Shown: one piece after another, positions 1 to 10,454 of the stretch | Numbering within the stretch: position 1 is the first letter of the stretch | Layout: every line of letters starts with the position of its first letter | The notes under the pieces: generated by a model | What the model saw: the letters and a program-made list of their open reading frames with translations, nothing else | What the model was told of the DNA's origin: nothing | Database searches by the model: none | Position numbers and translations under genes: made by a program | NCBI RefSeq assembly: GCF_030651745.1 | Contig: NZ_JAUSCC010000121.1 | Coordinates: forward strand, 1 to 56,743 | Length of the DNA stretch: 56,743 bases | Reading direction: 5' to 3' | From: Methylophaga sp. | GTDB lineage: Bacteria > Pseudomonadota > Gammaproteobacteria > Nitrosococcales > Methylophagaceae

Positions 1-1
1 T

Positions 2-562
2 GATTGGCAATGTGGCACCTTGCAAGTGGATATGAACCTGCCAGAACGTTTCAATCTGGAATATGTAGCAGATGATGGTCAGCGTAAACGTCCGGTCATG
101 TTGCATCGAGCTTTATTTGGTTCACTGGAACGCTTTATTGGCATTTTGCTTGAGCATCATGCTGGCAAATTACCGCTGTGGCTGGCACCGGTTCAGGTAA
201 AACTACTCTCCATAAGTGATGCACACGCCGCTTATGTCAATGATCTGGCCAGCTTTTTTTGTCGTTCAGGGATCCGTGCTGAAGCCGATATTCGCAATGA
301 GAAAATCGGCTATAAAATACGTGAGCATACGCTACAACGAATTCCATTCATGTGTGTTATTGGCGATCAGGAAATGGCCAATGCCAGTGTGGCTATACGT
401 AATCGTGAAGGTGAAAATCTCGGTGTCATGGATATTGAACAGGCGATGGACTTTTTCAGTTCAGCTGCAAAAGCACCGGATGCTGCCGCTGGTGAAATTG
501 AGAAGGAAAGACTTTTTAAACAGCTGCAGTCCAGACGGGTTGCGCCTTTAGCAGCTGAGTAA
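2..562 (+). CDS. thrS: Threonyl-tRNA synthetase, C-terminal part (5' end outside window)
   Basis: The frame is open from the window edge and ends at TAA 560-562, so only the last 186 residues are seen. The text WQCGTLQVD, then VMLHRALFGSLERF, covers the end of the class II catalytic core. The His of VMLHRA corresponds to the third zinc ligand of E. coli ThrRS (His511), and the Arg of SLERF is the motif 3 arginine. The rest is the anticodon-binding domain (WLAPVQV, IRAEADIRNEKIGYKIREHTL). ThrRS charges tRNA-Thr in the cytoplasm. In many gammaproteobacteria infC follows thrS; here a terminator and a convergent gene follow instead, so this may be a second, relocated copy. The zinc ligand is kept, so it is not a zinc-free version. 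Confidence 0.95.
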   Translation, partial: DWQCGTLQVDMNLPERFNLEYVADDGQRKRPVMLHRALFGSLERFIGILLEHHAGKLPLWLAPVQVKLLSISDAHAAYVNDLASFFCRSGIRAEADIRNEKIGYKIREHTLQRIPFMCVIGDQEMANASVAIRNREGENLGVMDIEQAMDFFSSAAKAPDAAAGEIEKERLFKQLQSRRVAPLAAE

Positions 563-639: not shown

Positions 640-1647
640 TTATTCAACAATACATGACTGTAATCCAGCCAGAATAACGTCCTTGGGTAAATCACGACCG
701 ATAAACACGAATTTGCTCTGGCGTGTTTCATCTTTCCTCCAGGCACTGCCTGCAGCACTGCCCACCAACATATGCACACCTTGCACGATAATGCGGTGCG
801 GCATGCCATCCACGTTTAATACCCCTTTATAACGCAGTAATTGTGTGCCGAATTTTTCCACGATAACCGCCAGCACTTCTTCAAGACGATCCGGATCCAA
901 AGCGCGCTGCTCTGAAAAGACAAAAGAGGCAATATGATCATCATGTGAATGCGCATGCGCGTCTTCATCAAGAAAATCAGGCTCGATCTCCAGAATGGCG
1001 TTGAGATTAAAGCCCTGAATATCCAGAATATGATCAATATCTGTCTCACCATGCTTGGCTTGCAAAATGCCGGCTTTTGGATTGATTTTAGTCAGTCTCG
1101 CCCGCAGGTCCTGCAGCTGCTGTTCACTGACCAAGTCAGATTTAGTCAGTAAAATACGATCAGCAAAGCCAACCTGCTCTTGCGCCTCATGATGTTGATC
1201 AAGTTGATCCGGAGCGTGTTTGGCATCGACTGTCGTCACGATGGCATCCAATATAAAGTTCTGCCGGATGTCATCATCGACAAAAAATGTCTGTGCCACT
1301 GGTGCAGGATCAGCGAGACCGGTAGTTTCAATAATGACCCGGTCAAACGTTATCCGTCCATCAGCTTTTTTGGCAGACAGCTCATTCAGAATTCGAACCA
1401 AATCGCCACGGACCGTACAGCAAATACAACCATTGTTCATTTCGATGATCTGCTCATCACGGTCCTGAACTAACAGTTCGTTATCAATGCCCTCTTCACC
1501 AAACTCGTTCTCTATGACGGCAATACGGTGTCCATGCTGAACACTGAGAATATGGTTGATCAAAGTGGTTTTGCCACTGCCCAGATAGCCAGTCAGAATG
1601 GTGACCGGGATTTGTGACGGGGTTTGGTTAGTTGCTGTTTGTGACAT
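640..1647 (-). CDS. COG0523 (CobW/YjiA-type) G3E GTPase, putative metal chaperone
   Basis: 335 residues. The N-terminus has the P-loop GYLGSGKTT, the family's metal-binding CxCC motif (GCICC), ENEFGEEG switch region and a TKSD guanine-specificity motif. A His-rich stretch (DEDAHAHSHDDH) links to the CobW C-terminal domain, which ends in LQSCIVE. Family members hydrolyse GTP and deliver or manage metals such as zinc or cobalt. It lies 24 nt downstream of hisI on the same strand, probably as one operon. COG0523 genes beside paralogues of zinc enzymes, including HisI and ThrS, are a known hallmark of Zur-type zinc-starvation responses. A zinc role here is inferred from this context. Confidence 0.9.
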   Translation of the reverse strand: MSQTATNQTPSQIPVTILTGYLGSGKTTLINHILSVQHGHRIAVIENEFGEEGIDNELLVQDRDEQIIEMNNGCICCTVRGDLVRILNELSAKKADGRITFDRVIIETTGLADPAPVAQTFFVDDDIRQNFILDAIVTTVDAKHAPDQLDQHHEAQEQVGFADRILLTKSDLVSEQQLQDLRARLTKINPKAGILQAKHGETDIDHILDIQGFNLNAILEIEPDFLDEDAHAHSHDDHIASFVFSEQRALDPDRLEEVLAVIVEKFGTQLLRYKGVLNVDGMPHRIIVQGVHMLVGSAAGSAWRKDETRQSKFVFIGRDLPKDVILAGLQSCIVE

Positions 1648-1671
1648 AAGTGTTCCTTAATTTAACTACGG

Positions 1672-2079
1672 TTATTCGGTAACCGGCTCGCTGACGACGA
1701 CCACTCGGTCTCCGACTATCTGGTTGTAAAAGCAACTTTTCCTGCCGGTATGACAAGCTCCCCCGGTTTGTTCTACAAACACCAGTACCGCATCACCATC
1801 ACAATCCAGTCGAATTTGCTTCACTTTTTGCTGATGCCCTGATGTTTCGCCTTTGCGCCAGAGACATTGTCTGGAGCGTGACCAATAACAGACTCTGCCG
1901 GTCTCAATGGTCTCCAGTAATGCCTCGCGGTTCATCCAGGCCAACATCAACACCTCACCAGTGTCATGTTGCTGGGCAATGGCATTGATTAATCCCTGGT
2001 TGTTCCAGGGAAGCGTTGCAATAACCTCTTTGAGATCCAATGAAGTTCCCATCGCCGATTTTTCAAGTGTTTCGATCAT
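1672..2079 (-). CDS. hisI: Stand-alone phosphoribosyl-AMP cyclohydrolase (HisI)
   Basis: 135 residues covering only the PRA-CH domain; no HisE domain is fused. It catalyses ring opening of phosphoribosyl-AMP in histidine synthesis. Visible motifs are WKG-like [15 protein letters not shown], and ACHTGRKSC, which carry the aspartates for Mg and the three cysteines for catalytic zinc. The gene is away from any his operon and lies first in an operon with the COG0523 GTPase, as in known zinc-responsive clusters. The start ATG at 2079 has a GAGGGA ribosome site; an internal ATG at 2055 is less likely. A palindromic operator lies 24 nt upstream. Confidence 0.92.
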
Positions 2080-2102
2080 GGCTATTTGTCCCTCAGATCA
2101 TA

Positions 2103-2119
2103 TTGATACGATATATCAA
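2103..2119. promoter_or_regulatory. Palindromic operator upstream of hisI-GTPase operon
   Basis: TTGATACGATATATCAA has 6-bp perfect inverted arms (TTGATA/TATCAA) around five bases. It lies 24-40 nt before the hisI ATG, where the promoter should be, which fits a repressor. Its core TGATACGATATATCA matches, in 14 of 15 bases, the reverse complement of the site before the methyltransferase/TonB operon at 8619-8633. The regulator is unknown; Zur is proposed from gene content, but the arms differ from the enterobacterial Zur consensus. Confidence 0.6.
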
Positions 2120-2158
2120 ATCTATCACAAATAACAGATTTGCCTAAGGCAAAGTCCC

Positions 2159-2344
2159 TTACTTTTTATCAACCTTCATTTGACTCATTCTTTTTTTAAG
2201 GGAGTTTTGCAGCAAATTTTTGGTGTACGGTTTCATCTTTTTCCATTGCTGGCATTCTTCTCGTGTTCGACCACACCCAGCGCACCACCCTTTGGGTCCG
2301 ACGAATTCACAGATATCAATACAAGGGCTGTTTGGTTTTATCAT
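2159..2344 (-). CDS. DUF1289 small Cys-rich protein
   Basis: 61 residues from ATG 2344. The N-terminal half has the DUF1289 cysteine pattern: PCIDIC, then WCAGCGR, then EECQQW, followed by a basic tail. The cysteines probably bind a metal; the family has no established function. A longer reading from TTG 2359 would overlap the upstream gene and is less likely. The stop codon of the preceding gene on this strand lies 7 nt away, so the two are probably co-transcribed. Confidence 0.85.
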   Translation of the reverse strand: MIKPNSPCIDICEFVGPKGWCAGCGRTREECQQWKKMKPYTKNLLQNSLKKRMSQMKVDKK

Positions 2345-2351
2345 GAGGCCA

Positions 2352-2792
2352 TCACGCAACTTTATTTAATGCCGCATCGATACTCGCTTCGAGCTGCCGT
2401 AGCCTGTTGAACTCTTCGAAAAGACGTTGCTCTAGATTTTTGAAATTAAGGGGCAGTGTTCGCGAACAGATGTTATATCCCTCACCGATCACGCTATAGC
2501 CCTTCCAATTTCTTATTCGGTCTGCCTCCAGCGCTAGAAATGCTTGAATAAAGCGCTGCTGTTGTAGGCAGTCTTCTTCTGCATGCATATGAACAGGGAA
2601 TTCTTTTTTTTGCAGCTGAGGTGCTTCAATATAGGTTTCAAAATGGATTCCGCCCTGGTTCTGGTTATACCAGTTCTCTTTATAGAGCTGGAGATAAGGA
2701 CCTCGGTTATAAATATCCCAGCCATCGTCAAACCAACTGGATTGCCTTAAATTTTGCTCAAGGTTACGAAATAACTTTTTTATATCTTTCAT
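2352..2792 (-). CDS. Hypothetical protein, 146 aa
   Basis: I do not recognise the family. The protein is soluble, without signal peptide or membrane segment. It is rich in aromatic residues in the first half (WFDDGWDIYNRGPYLQLYKENWYN) and ends in a predicted helical region with repeated Leu/Glu. Histidine and glutamate residues (HMHAEED) could bind metal, but this is only a possibility. It is followed after 7 nt by the DUF1289 gene. The ribosome site is weak. Codon use resembles its neighbours, so I consider it a real gene of unknown function. Confidence 0.7.
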   Translation of the reverse strand: MKDIKKLFRNLEQNLRQSSWFDDGWDIYNRGPYLQLYKENWYNQNQGGIHFETYIEAPQLQKKEFPVHMHAEEDCLQQQRFIQAFLALEADRIRNWKGYSVIGEGYNICSRTLPLNFKNLEQRLFEEFNRLRQLEASIDAALNKVA

Positions 2793-2910
2793 TACCTTTT
2801 TTTAATCCTTATAAAACGCATGGTCATGGAAATATTTTTGATTCTTCACCCTAGGACTTGTTGATCTTTCTCTTCCGTCGTCTTCAAGCGACGATGATTT
2901 ACATGGAGAG

Positions 2911-3693
2911 TTAAACCGCTTTTAAAAAAGCATTTTCCCTTGCTGGTTTTTCAGAATGAAAATGCGGGATCAATATGGTCTGCAGGTCCATCGTCAGCCG
3001 TTGAAAATACACATCAAAATGCAGATCCAGTGCCGGCGACATAATGACACTCTGTGTAGCGTCATCTAATTGGATCTCACCGTTATTCAAAACAACAATA
3101 CGATCAGCAAAACGGGTCGCAAGATTCAGATCATGCATCACCACAATCGCCGTCAGTCCTTCGGCAGTTCGATCCTTGATTCGCTTTAACAGCTGTAATT
3201 GATGAGCAACATCCAGCGCCGCAGCAGGTTCATCTGCAAGCAAAATAGCGGGATGTGAAATTAATGATGCCGCCAGCAATACTCTTGCCTGCTCCCCGCC
3301 TGAAAGTGTTTTGAATTGACGATCCAGCAGGTTTTCGATATCAAACTCCTGTAGAAAAGCAGCTGCAAAAACACTCGAATCGGCATGCAACTCAAGAATA
3401 TCGCTAACCCGATAATCCCAATAAATTTCAGAACGTTGCGGCAGATAGGAAAGCTGCTCGGCAATTTCCGCTGAAGTCATTTTTTTAAGCAAACGACCAG
3501 CCAGTTTGATGTCACCTTTTTCCGGTCTGTTTAACCCTGAAAGCAGTTTAAGCAAAGTGGATTTTCCAGCGCCATTGGGGCCAACCAACGCTACAAATTG
3601 GCCTGTGGGTATAGCGAGATTGATATTGTGCAACAGGGACTTTTGACCCACTTTCACTTTTATGCCTTCTGCTTGAATCGTAAACTCACTCAT
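2911..3693 (-). CDS. ABC transporter ATPase, FecE/BtuD/HmuV type
   Basis: 260 residues. Walker A GPNGAGKST, signature LSGGEQAR, Walker B ILLADEP and the H-loop VMHDLN are all intact. This is the energy-coupling subunit of a FecCD-family importer in the inner membrane. Its start overlaps the permease stop by 4 nt, so translation is coupled. It is the last gene of the five-gene operon starting at 8588. Substrate cannot be read from the ATPase; the family includes vitamin B12, haem and ferric-siderophore systems. Confidence 0.93.
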   Translation of the reverse strand: MSEFTIQAEGIKVKVGQKSLLHNINLAIPTGQFVALVGPNGAGKSTLLKLLSGLNRPEKGDIKLAGRLLKKMTSAEIAEQLSYLPQRSEIYWDYRVSDILELHADSSVFAAAFLQEFDIENLLDRQFKTLSGGEQARVLLAASLISHPAILLADEPAAALDVAHQLQLLKRIKDRTAEGLTAIVVMHDLNLATRFADRIVVLNNGEIQLDDATQSVIMSPALDLHFDVYFQRLTMDLQTILIPHFHSEKPARENAFLKAV

Positions 3694-4715
3694 CGACGTG
3701 CTTCCCGAATCAGGATAAATAAAAAGAATGGCGCACCTAACAACGCTGTTAGCAGACCCAGAGGGATTTCGGCTGGTGGCATTATTGAACGGGCGATGCC
3801 ATCAAATACCATCAGAGCCGCACCGGAACCCAGCGCACTGAAGATCATCAATCGATGATGACGAGGTCCCAACCACCAACGCATCATGTGCGGAATAACC
3901 AAACCGATAAAACCAATCAGGCCGCCCCAGACGACGGCCAATGCAGTTACTGCAGCCGCCACCAATACCGCTCGATGCATAAATTTTGAGACATCAAGCC
4001 CCATGCTTTTTGCGGCATCTGAGCCCAAACCAAGAATATCCAAGCCTCTGGCCAGCCGCAGACAGCAGATAAATCCAGCCACCGTCAGCAACATAAATAC
4101 AAAGAATTCCCGCCAGGTTGGTGTTTGAATAGCGCCCAATGTCCAGCTCAGAATCACTTGTAAACTGACGGCATCGTCTGACAATGTCAGCATGATCAAA
4201 CCACGAATCGCCGTTAGTAATGCTGCAATTGCCACGCCCGCCAATATCAAACCAAAACCACTTTCAACTCTCGCTAATCGGGCCAGACTTACCACCAGCA
4301 GCGTGGTTAACCATGCTCCGGCAAAGGCTAATAAAGGTAATAAAAACGGACCCGGTAATAACATCGGTAACATCAGAGCAATGGCGGCGCCAACCGAAGC
4401 ACCACTGGCACTGCCTAACAGATGTGGTTCGGCAAGCGGATTACGAAACACACCCTGAAAGATCCCCCCCGCCATTCCCAGACAGGCGCCAACACAGAAT
4501 GCTGTTAAAACACGTGGGATACGCCATTCCAAAATCAGTGTTCGCATTACTGAATCGCGATTACTAAGTGTTTGCCAAAGTTCCATCGGGCTCAATAATT
4601 CAGAACCTAACCAGGCAGAAAAAACAAAACACAAAACAACGCCGATACTGATGGTCACTGCAGGAAAATGGGTGCTGAATCGTGACACAGGTTGTAAAAC
4701 TTGCACGTCCATCAA
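3690..4715 (-). CDS. FecCD-family ABC transporter permease
   Basis: 341 residues with about ten hydrophobic segments. Typical FecCD motifs are present: WRIPRVLTAFCVGACLGMAG near residue 65, GxxxQxxFRNPLAEPHLLG, and the C-terminal GFIGLVIPHMMR with the conserved Gly before the coupling helix. It forms the inner-membrane channel for a metal-chelate or cobalamin-like ligand. It overlaps both neighbours by 4 nt. No accessory second permease gene is present, consistent with a BtuC-like homodimer. Confidence 0.93.
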   Translation of the reverse strand: MMDVQVLQPVSRFSTHFPAVTISIGVVLCFVFSAWLGSELLSPMELWQTLSNRDSVMRTLILEWRIPRVLTAFCVGACLGMAGGIFQGVFRNPLAEPHLLGSASGASVGAAIALMLPMLLPGPFLLPLLAFAGAWLTTLLVVSLARLARVESGFGLILAGVAIAALLTAIRGLIMLTLSDDAVSLQVILSWTLGAIQTPTWREFFVFMLLTVAGFICCLRLARGLDILGLGSDAAKSMGLDVSKFMHRAVLVAAAVTALAVVWGGLIGFIGLVIPHMMRWWLGPRHHRLMIFSALGSGAALMVFDGIARSIMPPAEIPLGLLTALLGAPFFLFILIREARR

Positions 4716-5683
4716 ACGTTTGCCCTGTCGGAAAATATTTGAGGGTGCAGTAATGGCGCCAGATACTCCACACCATCAATGATTCGAGGACCCGGAATTA
4801 AAAATAACTCACGGGGCACCATAAAAACCCGATCATCACGAATCGCTTGGATATTCTGCCAGCCGGGACGTTTCTTAATAGTTTCTACACTGCCCTCATT
4901 ACGGGCAACCAAAATAACATCAGGGTTGGCGGCAATAATGGCTTCGCCGCTGACCTGATTGATATGATCAAGATCAGCAAATATCGATTCTGCCCCTGCC
5001 TGTAATAACGCGTCGAAGGTGTAATGGCCTTTGCGGATCGTCGTAAAATTACCGCGATCATTCTGGCCGGTTTCAAAATACACTCTCGGACGTTGAACAC
5101 CATCTAATTGCCTGTCGATCATGCTTAACCGACGCTGTAATTGTGCAACGACCTGATCCGCATGTTTTTCATTGCCCAGCACCTGGCCGAGCAAATTCAG
5201 GTTGCTGAAGATTTCTTGCAAATCACGATGTAACAACACCACAACCGGCACACCAATAGTTTCCATGGGTTTTAGCAAGGTATTAACCGCTTGCCGTGCC
5301 GGTGTCATCACTATTAAATCCGGCTCTAACCGGGCGATGGCTTCAACTGAAAAACCAAGGCGTCCACCGATAATGGTTCGTCCCTCTCGAATATCCGGTG
5401 GAAAACGGGTGAAATCTTCAATGCCAACAATTCGGTCGGTGGCTCCCAAAGCATGCAGTAATTCGGTATTACTGGCAAAAATCGACACAATACGCTGAGG
5501 TGGTTGAGCAATGTGAATTTGCCGCCCCAGTGCATCCGTGACCGTTATCCCGGATGAAGCAGAATCACCAGCACTTTTAGCCATCATCGGCATCAATGTC
5601 AGCGCCAGCATTGCCGCTTTGAGGCAATGCCGGCGGGAGACATCAAAAGAACTCGTTGCGTGATGGTTGGGCAACTTGAGCAC
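4712..5683 (-). CDS. Periplasmic substrate-binding protein, BtuF/FepB type, Tat-like signal
   Basis: 323 residues. The N-terminus has a twin-arginine-like motif (SRRHCLKAA) followed by a hydrophobic stretch and AKSA, suggesting Tat export of a folded, possibly cofactor-loaded protein. The body is a type III binding protein: VTDALGRQIHIAQPPQRIVS, then LGATDRIVG, LEPDLIV and a C-terminal lobe with NPDVILVAR. It would deliver the ligand to the FecCD permease with which it overlaps by 4 nt. The substrate is not determinable; the TonB receptor upstream implies a bulky chelate. Confidence 0.9.
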   Translation of the reverse strand: MLKLPNHHATSSFDVSRRHCLKAAMLALTLMPMMAKSAGDSASSGITVTDALGRQIHIAQPPQRIVSIFASNTELLHALGATDRIVGIEDFTRFPPDIREGRTIIGGRLGFSVEAIARLEPDLIVMTPARQAVNTLLKPMETIGVPVVVLLHRDLQEIFSNLNLLGQVLGNEKHADQVVAQLQRRLSMIDRQLDGVQRPRVYFETGQNDRGNFTTIRKGHYTFDALLQAGAESIFADLDHINQVSGEAIIAANPDVILVARNEGSVETIKKRPGWQNIQAIRDDRVFMVPRELFLIPGPRIIDGVEYLAPLLHPQIFSDRANV

Positions 5684-5684
5684 C

Positions 5685-7799
5685 TTAAAAATCCAGCTTT
5701 AACCCGGCGTACAATTCCCGTCCTGGCATGCTGTTACCGCGTCCGCCACTGGAAAAAGCAGGATCCGAAATATAAGGCGTTTTATTCAAGGCAATAAATA
5801 ATGGGTGCTCGTTTTTATCGAACAGATTATTTATGCCGGCGAATAATTGCAGGTTTGAAGTGGCCTGATAACTGCCGCGAAGATTAAACACCCAGAATGC
5901 TGATTTTTTATGCACGTAGTCACGTGAGGATTCCGCCAGAGGAGTTAGCAAGCGTTCTTCCGTGTCATACCAGACTGGGCCTCTTAATATACCGGTCAGG
6001 TTCAGCTCCCAGCGGTTCTGACTCAATACGGTACCAATACCGGCCTGATACTTGTAAATACGCTGGATCCGATCGGTGTTGAGCGTGTCAGGCGCGCCCT
6101 TGTCACGCATATGAAAATGGTAACTGCCATTGGCAAACACCCGCCAGTTCACATCCGTCTGCAACAAAGAAGACAAGTTGGCTTCTAATTGCAGATCAAC
6201 ACCTTTCAGCTCAATATCATCGTCATTATTTTCATAGATACTGCGTCCATCCGCATTGGGACGGGTGGTAATACGGTCACTGATACGATTATCAAAAACG
6301 GCAATATCGCTGAACAACCACTCGTTGGAAAATGACATGCCGACTTCAATCTGATGATTGGTTTCATTGTCCAGATTTGGATTACCGATAATTTGCGAAC
6401 CACCAAAGGTTTCAAAATCAGCAGCGAGTTCGGTGGCGGTTGGTGCTCTGAAACCAGTGGCATATCCGGTTCTGAGTTTTATCTGATCGGTGAGCCGATA
6501 AGCGGCCCCCAAACTATGGGTAAATTCATCATAGTTTTCTGATCGCTTGATGAGCTCAAGTCCTTTGGTTGGCTGCAAAGTGGTTTTACCATCGGTATAA
6601 CGTCCTCCGGCTCGTAATGTCAGCCGATCATTGAGCACCGTCTGGATAACTTCACCCCAAACGGCCCCCACGCGTTCATCTTGATCGTTATCATATGGTG
6701 CTGCTCTGACCTTCTCACCTGTATTTCTTGATGTATTAAACCGATCATTTCTCAGTTCACTGTATTCAAGATCGGCACCGATCCTCAGTTCAGTTGATTG
6801 TGTGGCATTCCATTCCGTCAGCAAGCGTAAACCATAAATATCCAGCACCCGTTCGTTATCCAGTTTAAGAAACGTCCGGTTTTCCCAGTTAAAATGATCG
6901 ACATCCCTGACAAGATAGGCATGCGCATTCCAGGCCAAATCACCCGTTGGGTTTTGTCCGTCGTAGCTGAAATCTATCGAATGATTCTTCCGATCTTCAT
7001 CGCCCTCTGGTGCCCAGCTTGAACCACGAAATCCAGCGTTGTAGATGCCGTCAGTTCGCATTGTTAAATCAAACCGGTGAAAATCATTCAAATCCAATCC
7101 ACCGGCCACTAAGGCACTGCGTCTTTCCCATGCTGTGTTATGCATGGATTCTCTGCTTCCTCTACCGGAGTCATAATCATCACGCTCACTGGCACCAATA
7201 CCAAAATAGAAATCGGCGTTTTCACCCTGATATGCTGTATGCGCATGGCCTTGTTTTAATGACCAGGAACCACCGGAAAGGTTAATGCTGCTGCCTGAAG
7301 TATTACTGCCATTACGGGTAATAATATTGATTACTCCGCCCATTGCCTGACTGCCATAGGCGACTGATGCCGGTCCTCTTATAATTTCAATGCGTGATAC
7401 ATCACTTAAACTGAGTTTGGATATATTTGCCGTCCCTGCTCGTCTGCCGTTCACTAATACCAGCGTTTGGCTGCGAAAATCACGACCCTGGCCATCGGTT
7501 GCCCCGCCACGGATATTGATGGAGGTTTGAGCAGGTGTCCATTCACTGAAAAATCCCACTGCATTTTCGGCCAGTAAGTCGGTTATCGAACGGGCTGAGG
7601 AACGTCTTATCTTCTCTTCCGAAATGACTTGAATGGTAGTAGCTACCTTATCAAGTGTTTCACTGCGTCCTGATGTTGTTACGATCATTTCATCCAGAGT
7701 CATCACAGCAGCATCTCGCTGAGCCATCAGTAATGGACTGTGCAATGTCATGATTCCAACGGACAGATAAAAAACAGGTGCTAAACGGCCTGGTTTCAT
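5685..7799 (-). CDS. TonB-dependent outer-membrane receptor, BtuB/CirA-like
   Basis: 704 residues. A signal peptide (residues 1-26, ending LLMAQ) is followed by a TonB-box-like region (LDEMIVTT), the plug domain (residues about 45-160, with NIRGG, VLVNGRRAG, IEIIRGPASVAYGSQAMGG) and a 22-strand-type barrel ending in aromatic LDF. The barrel is rich in acidic residues (DNDQDERVG, NNDDDIEL). It would import a chelated metal or similar compound using TonB-ExbBD, which are not in the window. It is 9 nt from the methyltransferase gene and 1 nt from the binding-protein gene. Confidence 0.92.
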   Translation of the reverse strand: MKPGRLAPVFYLSVGIMTLHSPLLMAQRDAAVMTLDEMIVTTSGRSETLDKVATTIQVISEEKIRRSSARSITDLLAENAVGFFSEWTPAQTSINIRGGATDGQGRDFRSQTLVLVNGRRAGTANISKLSLSDVSRIEIIRGPASVAYGSQAMGGVINIITRNGSNTSGSSINLSGGSWSLKQGHAHTAYQGENADFYFGIGASERDDYDSGRGSRESMHNTAWERRSALVAGGLDLNDFHRFDLTMRTDGIYNAGFRGSSWAPEGDEDRKNHSIDFSYDGQNPTGDLAWNAHAYLVRDVDHFNWENRTFLKLDNERVLDIYGLRLLTEWNATQSTELRIGADLEYSELRNDRFNTSRNTGEKVRAAPYDNDQDERVGAVWGEVIQTVLNDRLTLRAGGRYTDGKTTLQPTKGLELIKRSENYDEFTHSLGAAYRLTDQIKLRTGYATGFRAPTATELAADFETFGGSQIIGNPNLDNETNHQIEVGMSFSNEWLFSDIAVFDNRISDRITTRPNADGRSIYENNDDDIELKGVDLQLEANLSSLLQTDVNWRVFANGSYHFHMRDKGAPDTLNTDRIQRIYKYQAGIGTVLSQNRWELNLTGILRGPVWYDTEERLLTPLAESSRDYVHKKSAFWVFNLRGSYQATSNLQLFAGINNLFDKNEHPLFIALNKTPYISDPAFSSGGRGNSMPGRELYAGLKLDF

Positions 7800-7808
7800 T
7801 GTTACTCC

Positions 7809-8588
7809 CTAATTAAATTGCCAGATGAGAACAGCACTTTTTTTCGCAGCCGTTGCGTAAAAAGCATTGCCATCAGATTGAAGAAATTCGTCTAAATATT
7901 TTGAAAGCGCTTCCGCGAGCCGAGGCTCGGCAGATGGATTGAATGTATTCTGAAAATAGTCATTAGCCTGATGGTAATCGGCAAAACTCTGCCGGAAAGT
8001 CCAATCCATCATGGTGATGGTATCTGGCTGCATGGCAGGGCCAAGATGTTCCAGAATGGTATCCAGAGACGACCCAATTGTTTCACCATGTAAATGCTCC
8101 GGTAAAAAACCACTTAAACATTTGCCATGTGGGCCATTCTGCGCCGGTACTATCCATATCATCAGCCGCCCGGTCAAGCTGCGTTGCCATCGCCAAAAGG
8201 TTTTAGTGTCATACACCGGACCGCTGGTATTGGCTGCCAGACTGACGTCATGTATTTCAAGCTCATGCTTATTCAACTGCTGCCAGCAATAAGGCAATAC
8301 ACTAAGTTGGTAAGGCAATGACGTGGCATGCATTTTCAGCTGGTCAACGAGAAAAGCATTGGGTTCTATGGCGGTCCAGCTTGCATTTTCAGCGAGTATC
8401 TCCCGGCTTATAGTGCCAACTCCGGCGCCTATATCGAGTAATTGTGTCTGCGGACCAATTAACTCAAGCAGTCGTGCTCCAACATTATTTGCATAATCTG
8501 ACTGCTCAATACCTTTAAGATATAACGCGGCTTGCTGGTCATTCCATATTGAAGCTAATGGTGATTGAACTGTTTTTTGTGCTGTCAT
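7809..8588 (-). CDS. Class I SAM-dependent methyltransferase, first gene of the uptake operon
   Basis: 259 residues. Motif I LLDIGAGVGTIS (residues about 50-61) and an acidic residue after the second strand (AIEPN) mark a Rossmann-fold SAM methyltransferase. The C-terminal half has no motif that I can assign to a substrate class. It is soluble with no signal peptide. Being the first gene before a TonB receptor and FecCD importer, it may modify the imported ligand or help make or release a metallophore, but this is inference. The start ATG 8588 has a weak ribosome site; the operator lies 31-45 nt upstream. Confidence 0.82.
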   Translation of the reverse strand: MTAQKTVQSPLASIWNDQQAALYLKGIEQSDYANNVGARLLELIGPQTQLLDIGAGVGTISREILAENASWTAIEPNAFLVDQLKMHATSLPYQLSVLPYCWQQLNKHELEIHDVSLAANTSGPVYDTKTFWRWQRSLTGRLMIWIVPAQNGPHGKCLSGFLPEHLHGETIGSSLDTILEHLGPAMQPDTITMMDWTFRQSFADYHQANDYFQNTFNPSAEPRLAEALSKYLDEFLQSDGNAFYATAAKKSAVLIWQFN

Positions 8589-8618
8589 GGAATTCTTCAG
8601 ATCTGGATAATTTAGACA

Positions 8619-8633
8619 TGATATATCATATCA
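8619..8633. promoter_or_regulatory. Palindromic operator upstream of methyltransferase/TonB/ABC operon
   Basis: TGATATATCATATCA has perfect TGATA/TATCA arms around five bases. Its reverse complement differs in one base from the hisI-promoter site at 2104-2118. The distance to the start codon (31 nt) is similar to that for hisI (about 24 nt). Two near-identical palindromes at matching promoter positions argue for one shared regulator. Confidence 0.6.
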
Positions 8634-8687
8634 TTTATTTATCAACAACCACTTACTCGCAATGATTGTCGCAGTTGCGGTAGTGCG

Positions 8688-9020
8688 TTAAGTAGCACTC
8701 TCCAGTAATAAATTCATTGTCAGTAACACAAAAACCAGTGCTGTAAGACGACTTAGATAAACATAGGCGTTGGTTTTTTGCCTCAGCCACTGCCCCAGCT
8801 GTCCCGCTATAACGGCAACACTGCTGAAAATAATGAACGAAATAACACCGAAAGTAGCTCTCAATAAGATAATTTGCGGGGTGATCGCGCCATATTCCGG
8901 ATCGGCAAATTGCGGCAGAAACGCCAGGAAGAAAATACTAACTTTTGGATTGCTGATATTCATAATAATGCCGCGCAGATATAACGCTTTATCACTTACC
9001 ACCACACCTTCTTCTGACAT
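8688..9020 (-). pseudogene. LysE/RhtB amino-acid exporter, 5'-truncated remnant
   Basis: 110 residues matching only the second half of the LysE/RhtB family: the conserved block GIIMNISNPKVSIFFLAFLPQF followed by three hydrophobic segments. Intact family members have about 200 residues; the first three membrane segments are missing here. A stop codon (TAA) lies in frame 15 nt upstream of the first ATG, and the trkA gene ends 60 nt further on, so no room remains for the missing part. Probably a decaying gene; a functional short exporter is unlikely. Confidence 0.75.
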
Positions 9021-9080
9021 GGTTGATGGTTGCCCTTAAAAATCTGCCGCGTCAGAAAGAGCAAATTAGAAAAACCTGAT

Positions 9081-10454
9081 TTACAGAAACTCAAATCCAA
9101 CTTGAAACAGTTTTTCTACCTCGTCGACATCGTGTTGCTCAGTTAGAAAGATGACAAGATGATCGCCACTTTCAATCTCGATATTTTTTTCGGCAAATAA
9201 AATCTGTTCTTTACGTAATATTGCCCCGACAGTAGCGCTTTTAGGCAATTTCAATTCTGCCAGGGTTCTGCCGACCACCTTAGATGTTTGTTTATCGCCG
9301 TGGGCCACAATCTCAATGGCTTCTGCAGCTCCTTGTCTTAACGAATGCACAGTGATTACATCGCCACGGCGGATATGAGTTAATAAGGTACCAATGGTGA
9401 TTTGTGCTGGTGATACGGCTATATCAATACTGGTGCCTTCTACCAGCTCAACATGACTGGCTTTGCTGATAATCGAAAAGGTTTTACGCGCCCCCAAACG
9501 CTTGGCGAGCATCGCTGAAAGAATGTTGGCTTCATCATCATTGGTGACTGCACAAAACACATCGGTTTTATGAATATTTTCTTCTTTAAGCAAATTGGCA
9601 TCGCCGACATCACCGTGCAATACAAGAGTTTTATGCAGATCTTCAGCAATAATCCGTGCACGAGTTTCATTATGTTCAATAATTTTAACGTTATGTGATT
9701 TTTCCAACCGTTGTGCCAGTTGCTTACCTATCTGCCCACCTCCGGCAATAAAAATACGTTGATAAGGTTGATAATCTTTTTTGAATACTTTTACCAGCTC
9801 ACTGATTTGATGTTTTTCGGCCAGAAAAAACACTTCATCATCTGCTTGAAGGGTAATTTTTCCTCCCGGTGGAATCGCACTCTCATCACGAAAGATAGCA
9901 GCGATACGCATTTGTACTTTGGGCAATATGTCCAACAGATCATGAATGGCTTTACCATCCATAATGCTTTCAGCATCCACTTTGACAGCGACCAAGCGCG
10001 CGCGATCACCGAAAAATGTCAAAACCTGCAAAACTTCAGGTTGTTCAATCAGGTGGGTAATGTAATCAGTCACTAATTGTTCTGGGCTGATAATGACATC
10101 AATTGGCACGGCATCTAGGGCAAATAACGCCGGATATTCCAGATAATCTGTGGCTCGAATACGTGCCAGTTTTTTGGGTGTATTAAATAATGAGCTGGCA
10201 ATCTGGCAGGCAATCATGTTGATCTCATCATTATGCGTCACCGCTATCAGCATATCGGTATCTTTAATACCAGCCCTTAGCAATGTGCTCGGATGAGCGG
10301 CATGCCCCACCACTGTGCGAATATCCAGATGCTCTTGAAGACGTTCCAGCAACGCAGGATTTTGATCAATTACTGTTACATCATTGCCTTCATTGGCCAA
10401 ACTTTCAGCTGTGGAACCGCCTACTTGTCCAGCTCCCAGAATAATTATTTTCAT
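9081..10454 (-). CDS. trkA: Trk potassium uptake regulatory subunit TrkA
   Basis: 457 residues with two tandem RCK modules. The first Rossmann motif is GAGQVGG at residue 7, the second GGGQIGK near residue 238; each is followed by a TrkA-C domain. It is a peripheral cytoplasmic protein that binds NAD(H)/ATP and gates the TrkH channel. It lies 16 nt downstream of trkH on the same strand, an obvious operon. Length and domain order are normal for TrkA. Confidence 0.97.
   Translation of the reverse strand: MKIIILGAGQVGGSTAESLANEGNDVTVIDQNPALLERLQEHLDIRTVVGHAAHPSTLLRAGIKDTDMLIAVTHNDEINMIACQIASSLFNTPKKLARIRATDYLEYPALFALDAVPIDVIISPEQLVTDYITHLIEQPEVLQVLTFFGDRARLVAVKVDAESIMDGKAIHDLLDILPKVQMRIAAIFRDESAIPPGGKITLQADDEVFFLAEKHQISELVKVFKKDYQPYQRIFIAGGGQIGKQLAQRLEKSHNVKIIEHNETRARIIAEDLHKTLVLHGDVGDANLLKEENIHKTDVFCAVTNDDEANILSAMLAKRLGARKTFSIISKASHVELVEGTSIDIAVSPAQITIGTLLTHIRRGDVITVHSLRQGAAEAIEIVAHGDKQTSKVVGRTLAELKLPKSATVGAILRKEQILFAEKNIEIESGDHLVIFLTEQHDVDEVEKLFQVGFEFL

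Follow-up and report, generated by a model that had tools for sequence, protein, structure and literature searches.

Introduction

In Escherichia coli, as a crystal structure has indicated (Gilston et al., 2014), one dimer of the zinc regulator Zur reads the element RNNNYxxxRNNNY and two overlapping dimers read RNNNYRNNRYNNYRNNNY; the 20-bp E. coli Zur motif is TGWNAYRWTATAWYRTNWCA, whose central TATA is said to distinguish Zur boxes from Fur boxes (PMC4219657). Here we describe two putative sites of this kind in a 56,743-nt stretch of DNA from Methylophaga sp. (NZ_JAUSCC010000121.1, positions 1-56,743, assembly GCF_030651745.1; the whole stretch is hereafter called the window). One precedes an operon for a stand-alone phosphoribosyl-AMP cyclohydrolase, hisI2, and a COG0523 GTPase, and the other precedes an operon that encodes a predicted methyltransferase and a TonB/FecCD uptake system. 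A sequence-only reading of this DNA had noticed a palindrome common to the two operons. On comparison with related genomes, we consider it probable that Zur acts on both operons, that the importer has as its likeliest cargo a chelate carrying cobalt (in ancestral form a corrinoid), and that control of the importer has passed from a riboswitch to Zur.

Two other described systems bear on these operons. Among genes of Zur regulons, Haas et al. (2009) list paralogues of HisI, PyrC, gamma-carbonic anhydrase, ThrRS and DksA together with COG0523 (PMC2770081). In Pseudomonas aeruginosa, the Zur- and zinc-repressed TonB/ABC system PA2911-PA2914 is reported to import pyochelin-cobalt and not pyochelin-zinc, and cobalt is reported to ease zinc starvation in this organism (PMC11481552, PMC13083405). 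Pederick et al. had suggested chelated zinc as the cargo of PA2911-PA2914, also noting a likeness to B12 permeases and a rise in cobalt in a znuA mutant, and the genes they describe include PA1921, which encodes a methyltransferase, has a Zur site and lies next to the TonB gene PA1922 and cobN (PA1923) (PMC4542158).

Two candidate Zur operators of double-dimer form

The palindrome TGATA-N5-TATCA is present exactly at 2104-2118 (TGATACGATATATCA) and 8619-8633 (TGATATATCATATCA), as the sequence-only reading had it, and the two 15-mers share 14 of 15 bases after reverse-complementing one of them. There are no other exact copies in the window (n = 2), and dinucleotide shuffles contain 0.065 copies on average, with one of 200 reaching two. 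That reading had placed the sites 24-45 nt ahead of the first start codons; the lower figure holds for hisI2 (24 nt to the ATG at 2079), the distance to the methyltransferase start (ATG at 8588) is 30 nt, and 45 nt fits only the far end of the second site.

When the 20-bp E. coli motif is used instead, no other place on either strand of the window scores as well as 8614-8633 (19/20) and 2104-2123 (18/20), located 24-25 nt before the operon starts, and both agree with the RNNNYRNNRYNNYRNNNY skeleton at 18 of 18 positions with the central TATA intact. A 19/20 match arises in six of 300 shuffles of the window. The original 15-mer corresponds to a single dimer's RNNNYxxxRNNNY element with one base added on each side, which explains both its symmetry and its apparent departure from the usual consensus, and it is centred 2.5 bp away from the dyad with the most symmetry. 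Among 43 sites (36 hand-picked intergenic sites from the genus and seven from the window, L001 and L002), mirrored positions pair in 78% of cases at the 18-mer centre versus 59% and 56% at the flanking 15-mer centres, the genus sites having been collected by an 18-bp pattern that biases this test toward the 18-mer centre. A pattern-free motif search in 25 upstream stretches chosen by gene gave a symmetry of 0.653 over 11 pairs at the 18-mer centre and 0.665 over nine pairs at one 15-mer centre; such near-equal values fit two overlapping dimers and are not decisive. The half-sites had been described as differing from the enterobacterial Zur consensus, a difference that appears because the comparison was centred on one dimer's element and that is lost in the published two-dimer register. 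A divergent Zur box was accordingly rejected as a candidate, given the 18-19/20 match in that register and the displacement of the 15-mer centre from the main dyad. Both sites are very probably Zur operators of the ordinary, canonical double-dimer form; the window by itself is suggestive of Zur, and conservation carries the case.

Table 1. Features of the window discussed in the text
Feature	Position	Strand	Basis
Threonyl-tRNA synthetase gene, 3' part, converging on the COG0523 gene	1..562	+	TIGR00418, PF03129
COG0523 (CobW-family) GTPase	640..1647	-	PF02492, PF07683
hisI2, stand-alone phosphoribosyl-AMP cyclohydrolase (PRA-CH)	1672..2079	-	PF01502; NCBIfam PRK00051 above cut-off
Putative Zur operator, hisI2-COG0523 operon	2104..2123	-	18/20 to TGWNAYRWTATAWYRTNWCA, 18/18 to RNNNYRNNRYNNYRNNNY; kept in M. 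muralis (L002 16430-16447)
ABC ATPase of importer	2911..3693	-	PF00005
FecCD/BtuC-type permease	3690..4715	-	PF01032
Periplasmic binding protein, BtuF/FecB type	4712..5683	-	PF01497 (Peripla_BP_2)
TonB-dependent receptor	5685..7799	-	PF00593, PF07715
Predicted class I S-adenosylmethionine (SAM) methyltransferase, rare family	7809..8588	-	AlphaFold2 (AF2) model, pLDDT 89.9; Foldseek to class I methyltransferases
Putative Zur operator, methyltransferase/TonB/FecCD operon	8614..8633	-	19/20 to TGWNAYRWTATAWYRTNWCA, 18/18 to RNNNYRNNRYNNYRNNNY
Promoter-like site, second hexamer within operator	8618..8645	-	TTGATA-16-TATCAT, 10/12 match

Conservation of the motif and its targets in Methylophaga

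In Methylophaga muralis, which has the closest named locus among those compared, synteny with the window extends over both operons, and both sites are conserved. When no more than two mismatches are allowed, the E. coli motif occurs at 12 places in this genome of about 2.8 Mb (14 matches, compared with six matches of the reversed pattern). Six of these places, including the orthologues of the window's two sites, precede zinc-linked or plausible operons: MerC-DksA2-COG0523-DUF1826-ZrgA-Zur, hisI2, the methyltransferase operon, a sufE paralogue, a divergent ABC/DUF3299 pair, and yffB with an M20 gene. The ABC/DUF3299 pair and yffB with its M20 (DapE-like) neighbour are plausible and not proven zinc genes; M20 (DapE-like) proteins are zinc enzymes.

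Of 24 genomes of the genus, 23 contain an 18-bp version of the motif with at most two mismatches, with 104 matches on both strands against seven for the reversed pattern. Within 53 stretches around these matches, sites stand before MerC-dksA2 operons, dksA2, sufE, a gene read as zur, hisI2, COG0523, TonB receptors and an M23 endopeptidase gene; in two genomes (L056, L091) the motif lies between divergent sufE and the gene read as zur. In some of the stretches the site falls within a coding region or before a gene with no visible zinc link. Paralogues provided a control, in which the 18-mer pattern was sought within 650 nt at up to three mismatches (found in 0.1-0.5% of shuffles). A site accompanies 19 of 19 dksA2 operons and none of the 11 housekeeping dksA loci examined, a count that leaves aside 11 further housekeeping-type matches (one partial), three weak ones and a fragment repeated 12-fold in one genome. 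Similarly, all four COG0523 genes of the window's type have a site, and the other hisI genes have none (0/22). The 18-mer pattern was drawn partly from dksA2 sites, so that the 19/19 is not an independent result; the E. coli motif is independent, and a site matching it at 18/20 or better lies upstream of all five methyltransferase operons seen (window, M. muralis, G001, G003, G013).

The regulator itself is encoded in M. muralis within the MerC-DksA2-COG0523-DUF1826-ZrgA-Zur operon, behind the same operator motif. Alignment of this protein with E. coli Zur (4mtd) shows that Tyr45, Asp49, Arg52 and Arg65 are kept, which are the base-reading and dimer-linking residues of the E. coli protein (PMC4219657) and whose retention predicts double-dimer binding. 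The proposal that one regulator, Zur, is shared by the two operons is supported at the level of motif match, conservation across the genus and the location of a zur operon behind the motif. A gene for a His-rich ZrgA-family protein directly precedes zur in M. muralis (L070 1882-2484).

The uptake operon and its relatives

The operon behind the second site is ordered methyltransferase, TonB receptor, PF01497 binding protein, FecCD permease and ATPase, in agreement with the sequence-only reading: Pfam identifies the importer genes, and predicted structure the methyltransferase. It contains the complete BtuB-F-C-D gene set. The binding protein has PF01497 as its sole Pfam match and is not of the ZnuA type; ZnuA belongs to a different family.

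We scanned six related importer operons from outside the genus: L214 (with a methyltransferase), L219, L220, and three on plasmids of Bartonella sp. HY328 (L259, with a methyltransferase), Variovorax paradoxus (L260) and Moellerella (L261, where no TonB gene is listed beside or before the binding protein). These three are among eight plasmid records matched, the others being L262, H2, H5, H7 and H8. Five of the six operons have a cobalamin riboswitch upstream (RF00174, 73-128 bits; gathering threshold 31.5). It lies directly upstream of the operon except in Bartonella, where it is upstream of a longer same-strand row that opens with DUF1852 and methionine synthase. In L220, the operon is followed by an oxidoreductase gene, a COG0523 gene and a large gene read as cobN. 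No Zur-like site above chance was found at L219, L220, L259, L260 or L261. At L214, the E. coli motif is matched once with three mismatches, at 6611-6630, roughly 1.6 kb ahead of the methyltransferase gene. This is above chance, one such match being reached by five of 200 and none of 20 shuffles; it could reflect a link to Zur there too, and we do not use it as support.

Conversely, no cobalamin riboswitch was detected at the Methylophaga copies scanned (window, L001, L002, L003, L025-L027 and L029). Each of the 24 genomes of the genus carries at least one RF00174 match elsewhere, on other contigs in the four that have the operon. In M. muralis, one pair of riboswitches lies between genes read as cobalamin synthesis genes and a BtuB-like receptor, and another pair lies before a large CobN-like gene. 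An alignment of 13 binding proteins, five from Methylophaga and three encoded behind riboswitches, shows no variation in the motifs GGRLGFS and TPARQA; this common ground fits a single ligand for the Methylophaga and riboswitch-type members and is no proof of one. The sequence-only reading had predicted that the uptake operon serves zinc, which is made doubtful by relatives standing behind cobalamin riboswitches; on that evidence, the cargo is more likely to be a corrinoid or another chelate of cobalt.

The methyltransferase

The first protein of the uptake operon has no Pfam match, and its closest folds in the PDB are those of generic class I methyltransferases, with histamine methyltransferase first (template modelling score of about 0.6). 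The family is sparsely distributed: 31 homologues were found in our protein collection at E<=0.001, 28 of which were aligned with the window protein, and the gene is present in four of 24 genomes of the genus, in at least one of 369 genomes of the class (M. muralis itself) and in at least two of 398 of the phylum (M. muralis and G541). Perhaps the enzyme modifies the imported corrinoid. In G541, the methyltransferase operon lies near a gene read as the methanol dehydrogenase gene xoxF, with a C-terminal COG0523 fragment between them (L214 4453-6327, 7317-7755).

Alternative explanations

If the two sites were Fur boxes, the signal common to the operons would be iron. TonB/FecCD importers are often Fur targets, and the 15-mers agree with the Fur 7-1-7 consensus at 11 of 15 positions. 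Against this, the Zur motif is matched at 18-19 of 20 positions with the central TATA that, by the published distinction, places the sites outside the Fur-box class, and the targets across the genus include dksA2, hisI2, COG0523 and the zur operon, so that we regard control by Fur as very improbable. More improbable still is that the palindromes arose by chance in upstream DNA rich in A and T. The bare palindrome is a loose pattern, and of 300 shuffles of the window, 20 contain two motif matches at 18/20 or better; both 20-bp sites, however, stand at nearly the same distance before an operon start and have been kept in M. muralis and further genomes, and it is this conservation that disfavours chance.

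For the cargo, the leading competing proposal retains Zur on both operons and has the importer bring in zinc itself as a chelate, in the manner of a zincophore, as the sequence-only reading supposed. Control by Zur, the neighbouring zinc-economy genes and the suggestion of Pederick et al. for PA2911-PA2914 (PMC4542158) all speak for it. The related importers, on the other hand, lie behind cobalamin riboswitches, and one of them has COG0523 and the gene read as cobN downstream; the binding-protein motifs common to Methylophaga and riboswitch-type members fit one ligand, if without proving it; and PA2911-PA2914 was later reported to serve cobalt-pyochelin and not zinc-pyochelin (PMC11481552). 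A zinc chelate thus seems to us a rather unlikely cargo. Heme is also possible, as the receptor and the ATPase score best against NCBIfam heme models (206 of the 317 and 219 of the 261 bits required, respectively).

Several observations weigh against Zur control or against a cobalt-bearing cargo. Those heme scores, although below cut-off, are the best NCBIfam matches, and the cut-offs of the B12 models are missed (BtuF 71/234, BtuC 199/334, BtuD 148/281 and TonB-B12 132/600 bits). One of the six operons outside the genus, that of Moellerella, has no riboswitch. Orthology to PA2911-PA2914 or PA1921 is unsupported, with no P. aeruginosa protein named in the best 120 of 304 matches. In the window, the two motif matches at 18/20 or better compare with 0.38 expected, and at three mismatches the E. 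coli motif occurs at chance (four seen, 4.09 expected). The bare 10-base palindrome is unspecific: allowing up to two mismatches, the window contains 63 matches where 35 are expected, and M. muralis has 19 exact copies against two of a reversed control pattern; only five of those 19 satisfy all seven testable positions of the Zur skeleton. A concern raised with the sequence-only reading was that many genomic matches might be unlinked to metal genes, and this is partly realized: beside the six zinc-linked or plausible places in M. muralis there are six with no zinc link, about the rate of the reversed pattern. Only two of four hisI2 genes of the window's type have a site, G006 and G007 having none within 650 nt. 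The evidence on the Zur protein comes from M. muralis and not from the window's own genome. Finally, membership of a Zur regulon has been said to require zinc-dependent Zur binding at the promoter and zinc-dependent expression in vivo (PMC6103462), and open-licence PMC literature, screened by titles and the starts of abstracts, yielded neither kind of evidence for Zur of Methylophaga.

Neighbouring genes and further candidate targets

Pfam confirms both members of the hisI2-COG0523 operon that the sequence-only reading had named. In M. muralis, the hisI2 match (L002 16470-16900) is split into residues 1-82 and 80-135, so that either the gene is truly broken or the assembly is at fault. A 146-aa protein with no Pfam or NCBIfam match is encoded in the window at 2352-2792, between the uptake operon and hisI2, and is kept in M. 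muralis. Just upstream of the methyltransferase operon lies the C-terminal half of a LysE-family exporter (8688-9020); a LysE gene, PA2916, is listed next to PA2911-PA2914 in P. aeruginosa (PMC4542158). A promoter scan of 1600-9100 performed no better than shuffles (nine sites found, 12.5 expected), and the promoter-like site overlapping the second operator, although joint best of the nine, is weak when taken alone.

In eight genomes of the genus, a gene for a SufE paralogue comes first behind a Zur-type site (L069 2537-3007, L001 3565-4011, L056, L059, L067, L079, L091 and L104; identified by Pfam in L069 only); SufE is not known as a member of published Zur regulons, although no search settled the point. 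In M. muralis, it opens a row on one strand that continues with genes for a flavoprotein, a membrane protein and a hexapeptide protein, which we read as gamma-carbonic-anhydrase-like, and ends with a full thrS, the gene whose 3' part opens the window (L069, L002). Zur-type sites also precede yffB (ArsC family) in four genomes (L204 1501-1520 in M. muralis, L060, L083 and L093), with the M20 (DapE-like) gene following in the one genome checked. A one-mismatch site lies before an M23 endopeptidase gene at L095 2805, L099 2495 and L102 2499 (Pfam for L099), a case resembling that of the Zur-controlled ShyB of Vibrio (PMC6381278). In a single genome, a Zur-type site (L078 2535-2552) precedes an amidohydrolase gene (PF07969) that we read as a formylmethanofuran-dehydrogenase-like subunit.

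Discussion

In the model we propose, Zur is encoded elsewhere in the genome and, loaded with zinc when the metal is plentiful, would occupy both operators and block both promoters; in zinc shortage it would leave, turning both operons on. Zinc enzymes might then be backed up or supplied by HisI2 and the COG0523 metal chaperone, in line with a proposal made for other Zur regulons (PMC2770081), while the importer would ease the shortage by bringing in a cobalt-bearing chelate, acting through cobalt or B12. In Methylophaga, control of the importer would have been handed from a B12 riboswitch to Zur, a direction of change that we consider likely from the six operons outside the genus and the five within it. 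Whether the consequence of this move is that zinc starvation, and not B12 shortage, now calls for corrinoid or cobalt import is a more tentative proposal, one that we advance with less than even confidence.

Zur boxes are already well known; what is less usual is the target, a B12-type importer seemingly governed by zinc. Should the proposed model hold, zinc economy and cobalt supply would be linked outside Pseudomonas through an exchange of regulators that occurred in nature, and the methyltransferase would count as a new enzyme for handling corrinoids or metallophores. Methylophaga would then offer a second lineage, beside Pseudomonas, in which zinc-to-cobalt compensation can be tested, with an uncharacterised methyltransferase family placed within it. 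Searches of open-licence PMC by titles and the starts of abstracts, for Methylophaga with Zur or for Zur with cobalamin riboswitch and zinc, returned nothing on such a swap.

Comparison with known systems

Relative to the double-dimer operators of E. coli (znuABC and others), as published, the Methylophaga sites have the same 18-bp RNNNYRNNRYNNYRNNNY skeleton and the same 20-bp motif with its central TATA, and differ at the free positions, the seventh position of the 18-mer being A in 36 and T in seven of 43 sites. The base-contact and dimer-linking residues reported for E. coli Zur are likewise common to the M. muralis protein. The genes behind the motif are of the same kinds as in the Zur regulons listed by Haas et al. 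(PMC2770081), some of the names being given here by reading only; in addition, a SufE paralogue, a YffB gene and the methyltransferase/B12-type importer operon occur behind the motif in Methylophaga. With BtuB-BtuF-BtuC-BtuD importers, the uptake operon has its gene set in common, and relatives in Bartonella sp. HY328, Variovorax paradoxus, L214, L219 and L220 carry RF00174, whereas the Methylophaga copies have a putative Zur operator and no riboswitch, and score far under the B12 cut-offs. As far as PA2911-PA2914 has been described, it resembles this operon in combining a Zur-repressed TonB receptor with a B12-like ABC importer, and PA1921-PA1922 resembles it in that a methyltransferase gene with a Zur site adjoins a TonB gene. 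In Methylophaga, unlike in P. aeruginosa, the methyltransferase gene resides inside the FecCD operon.

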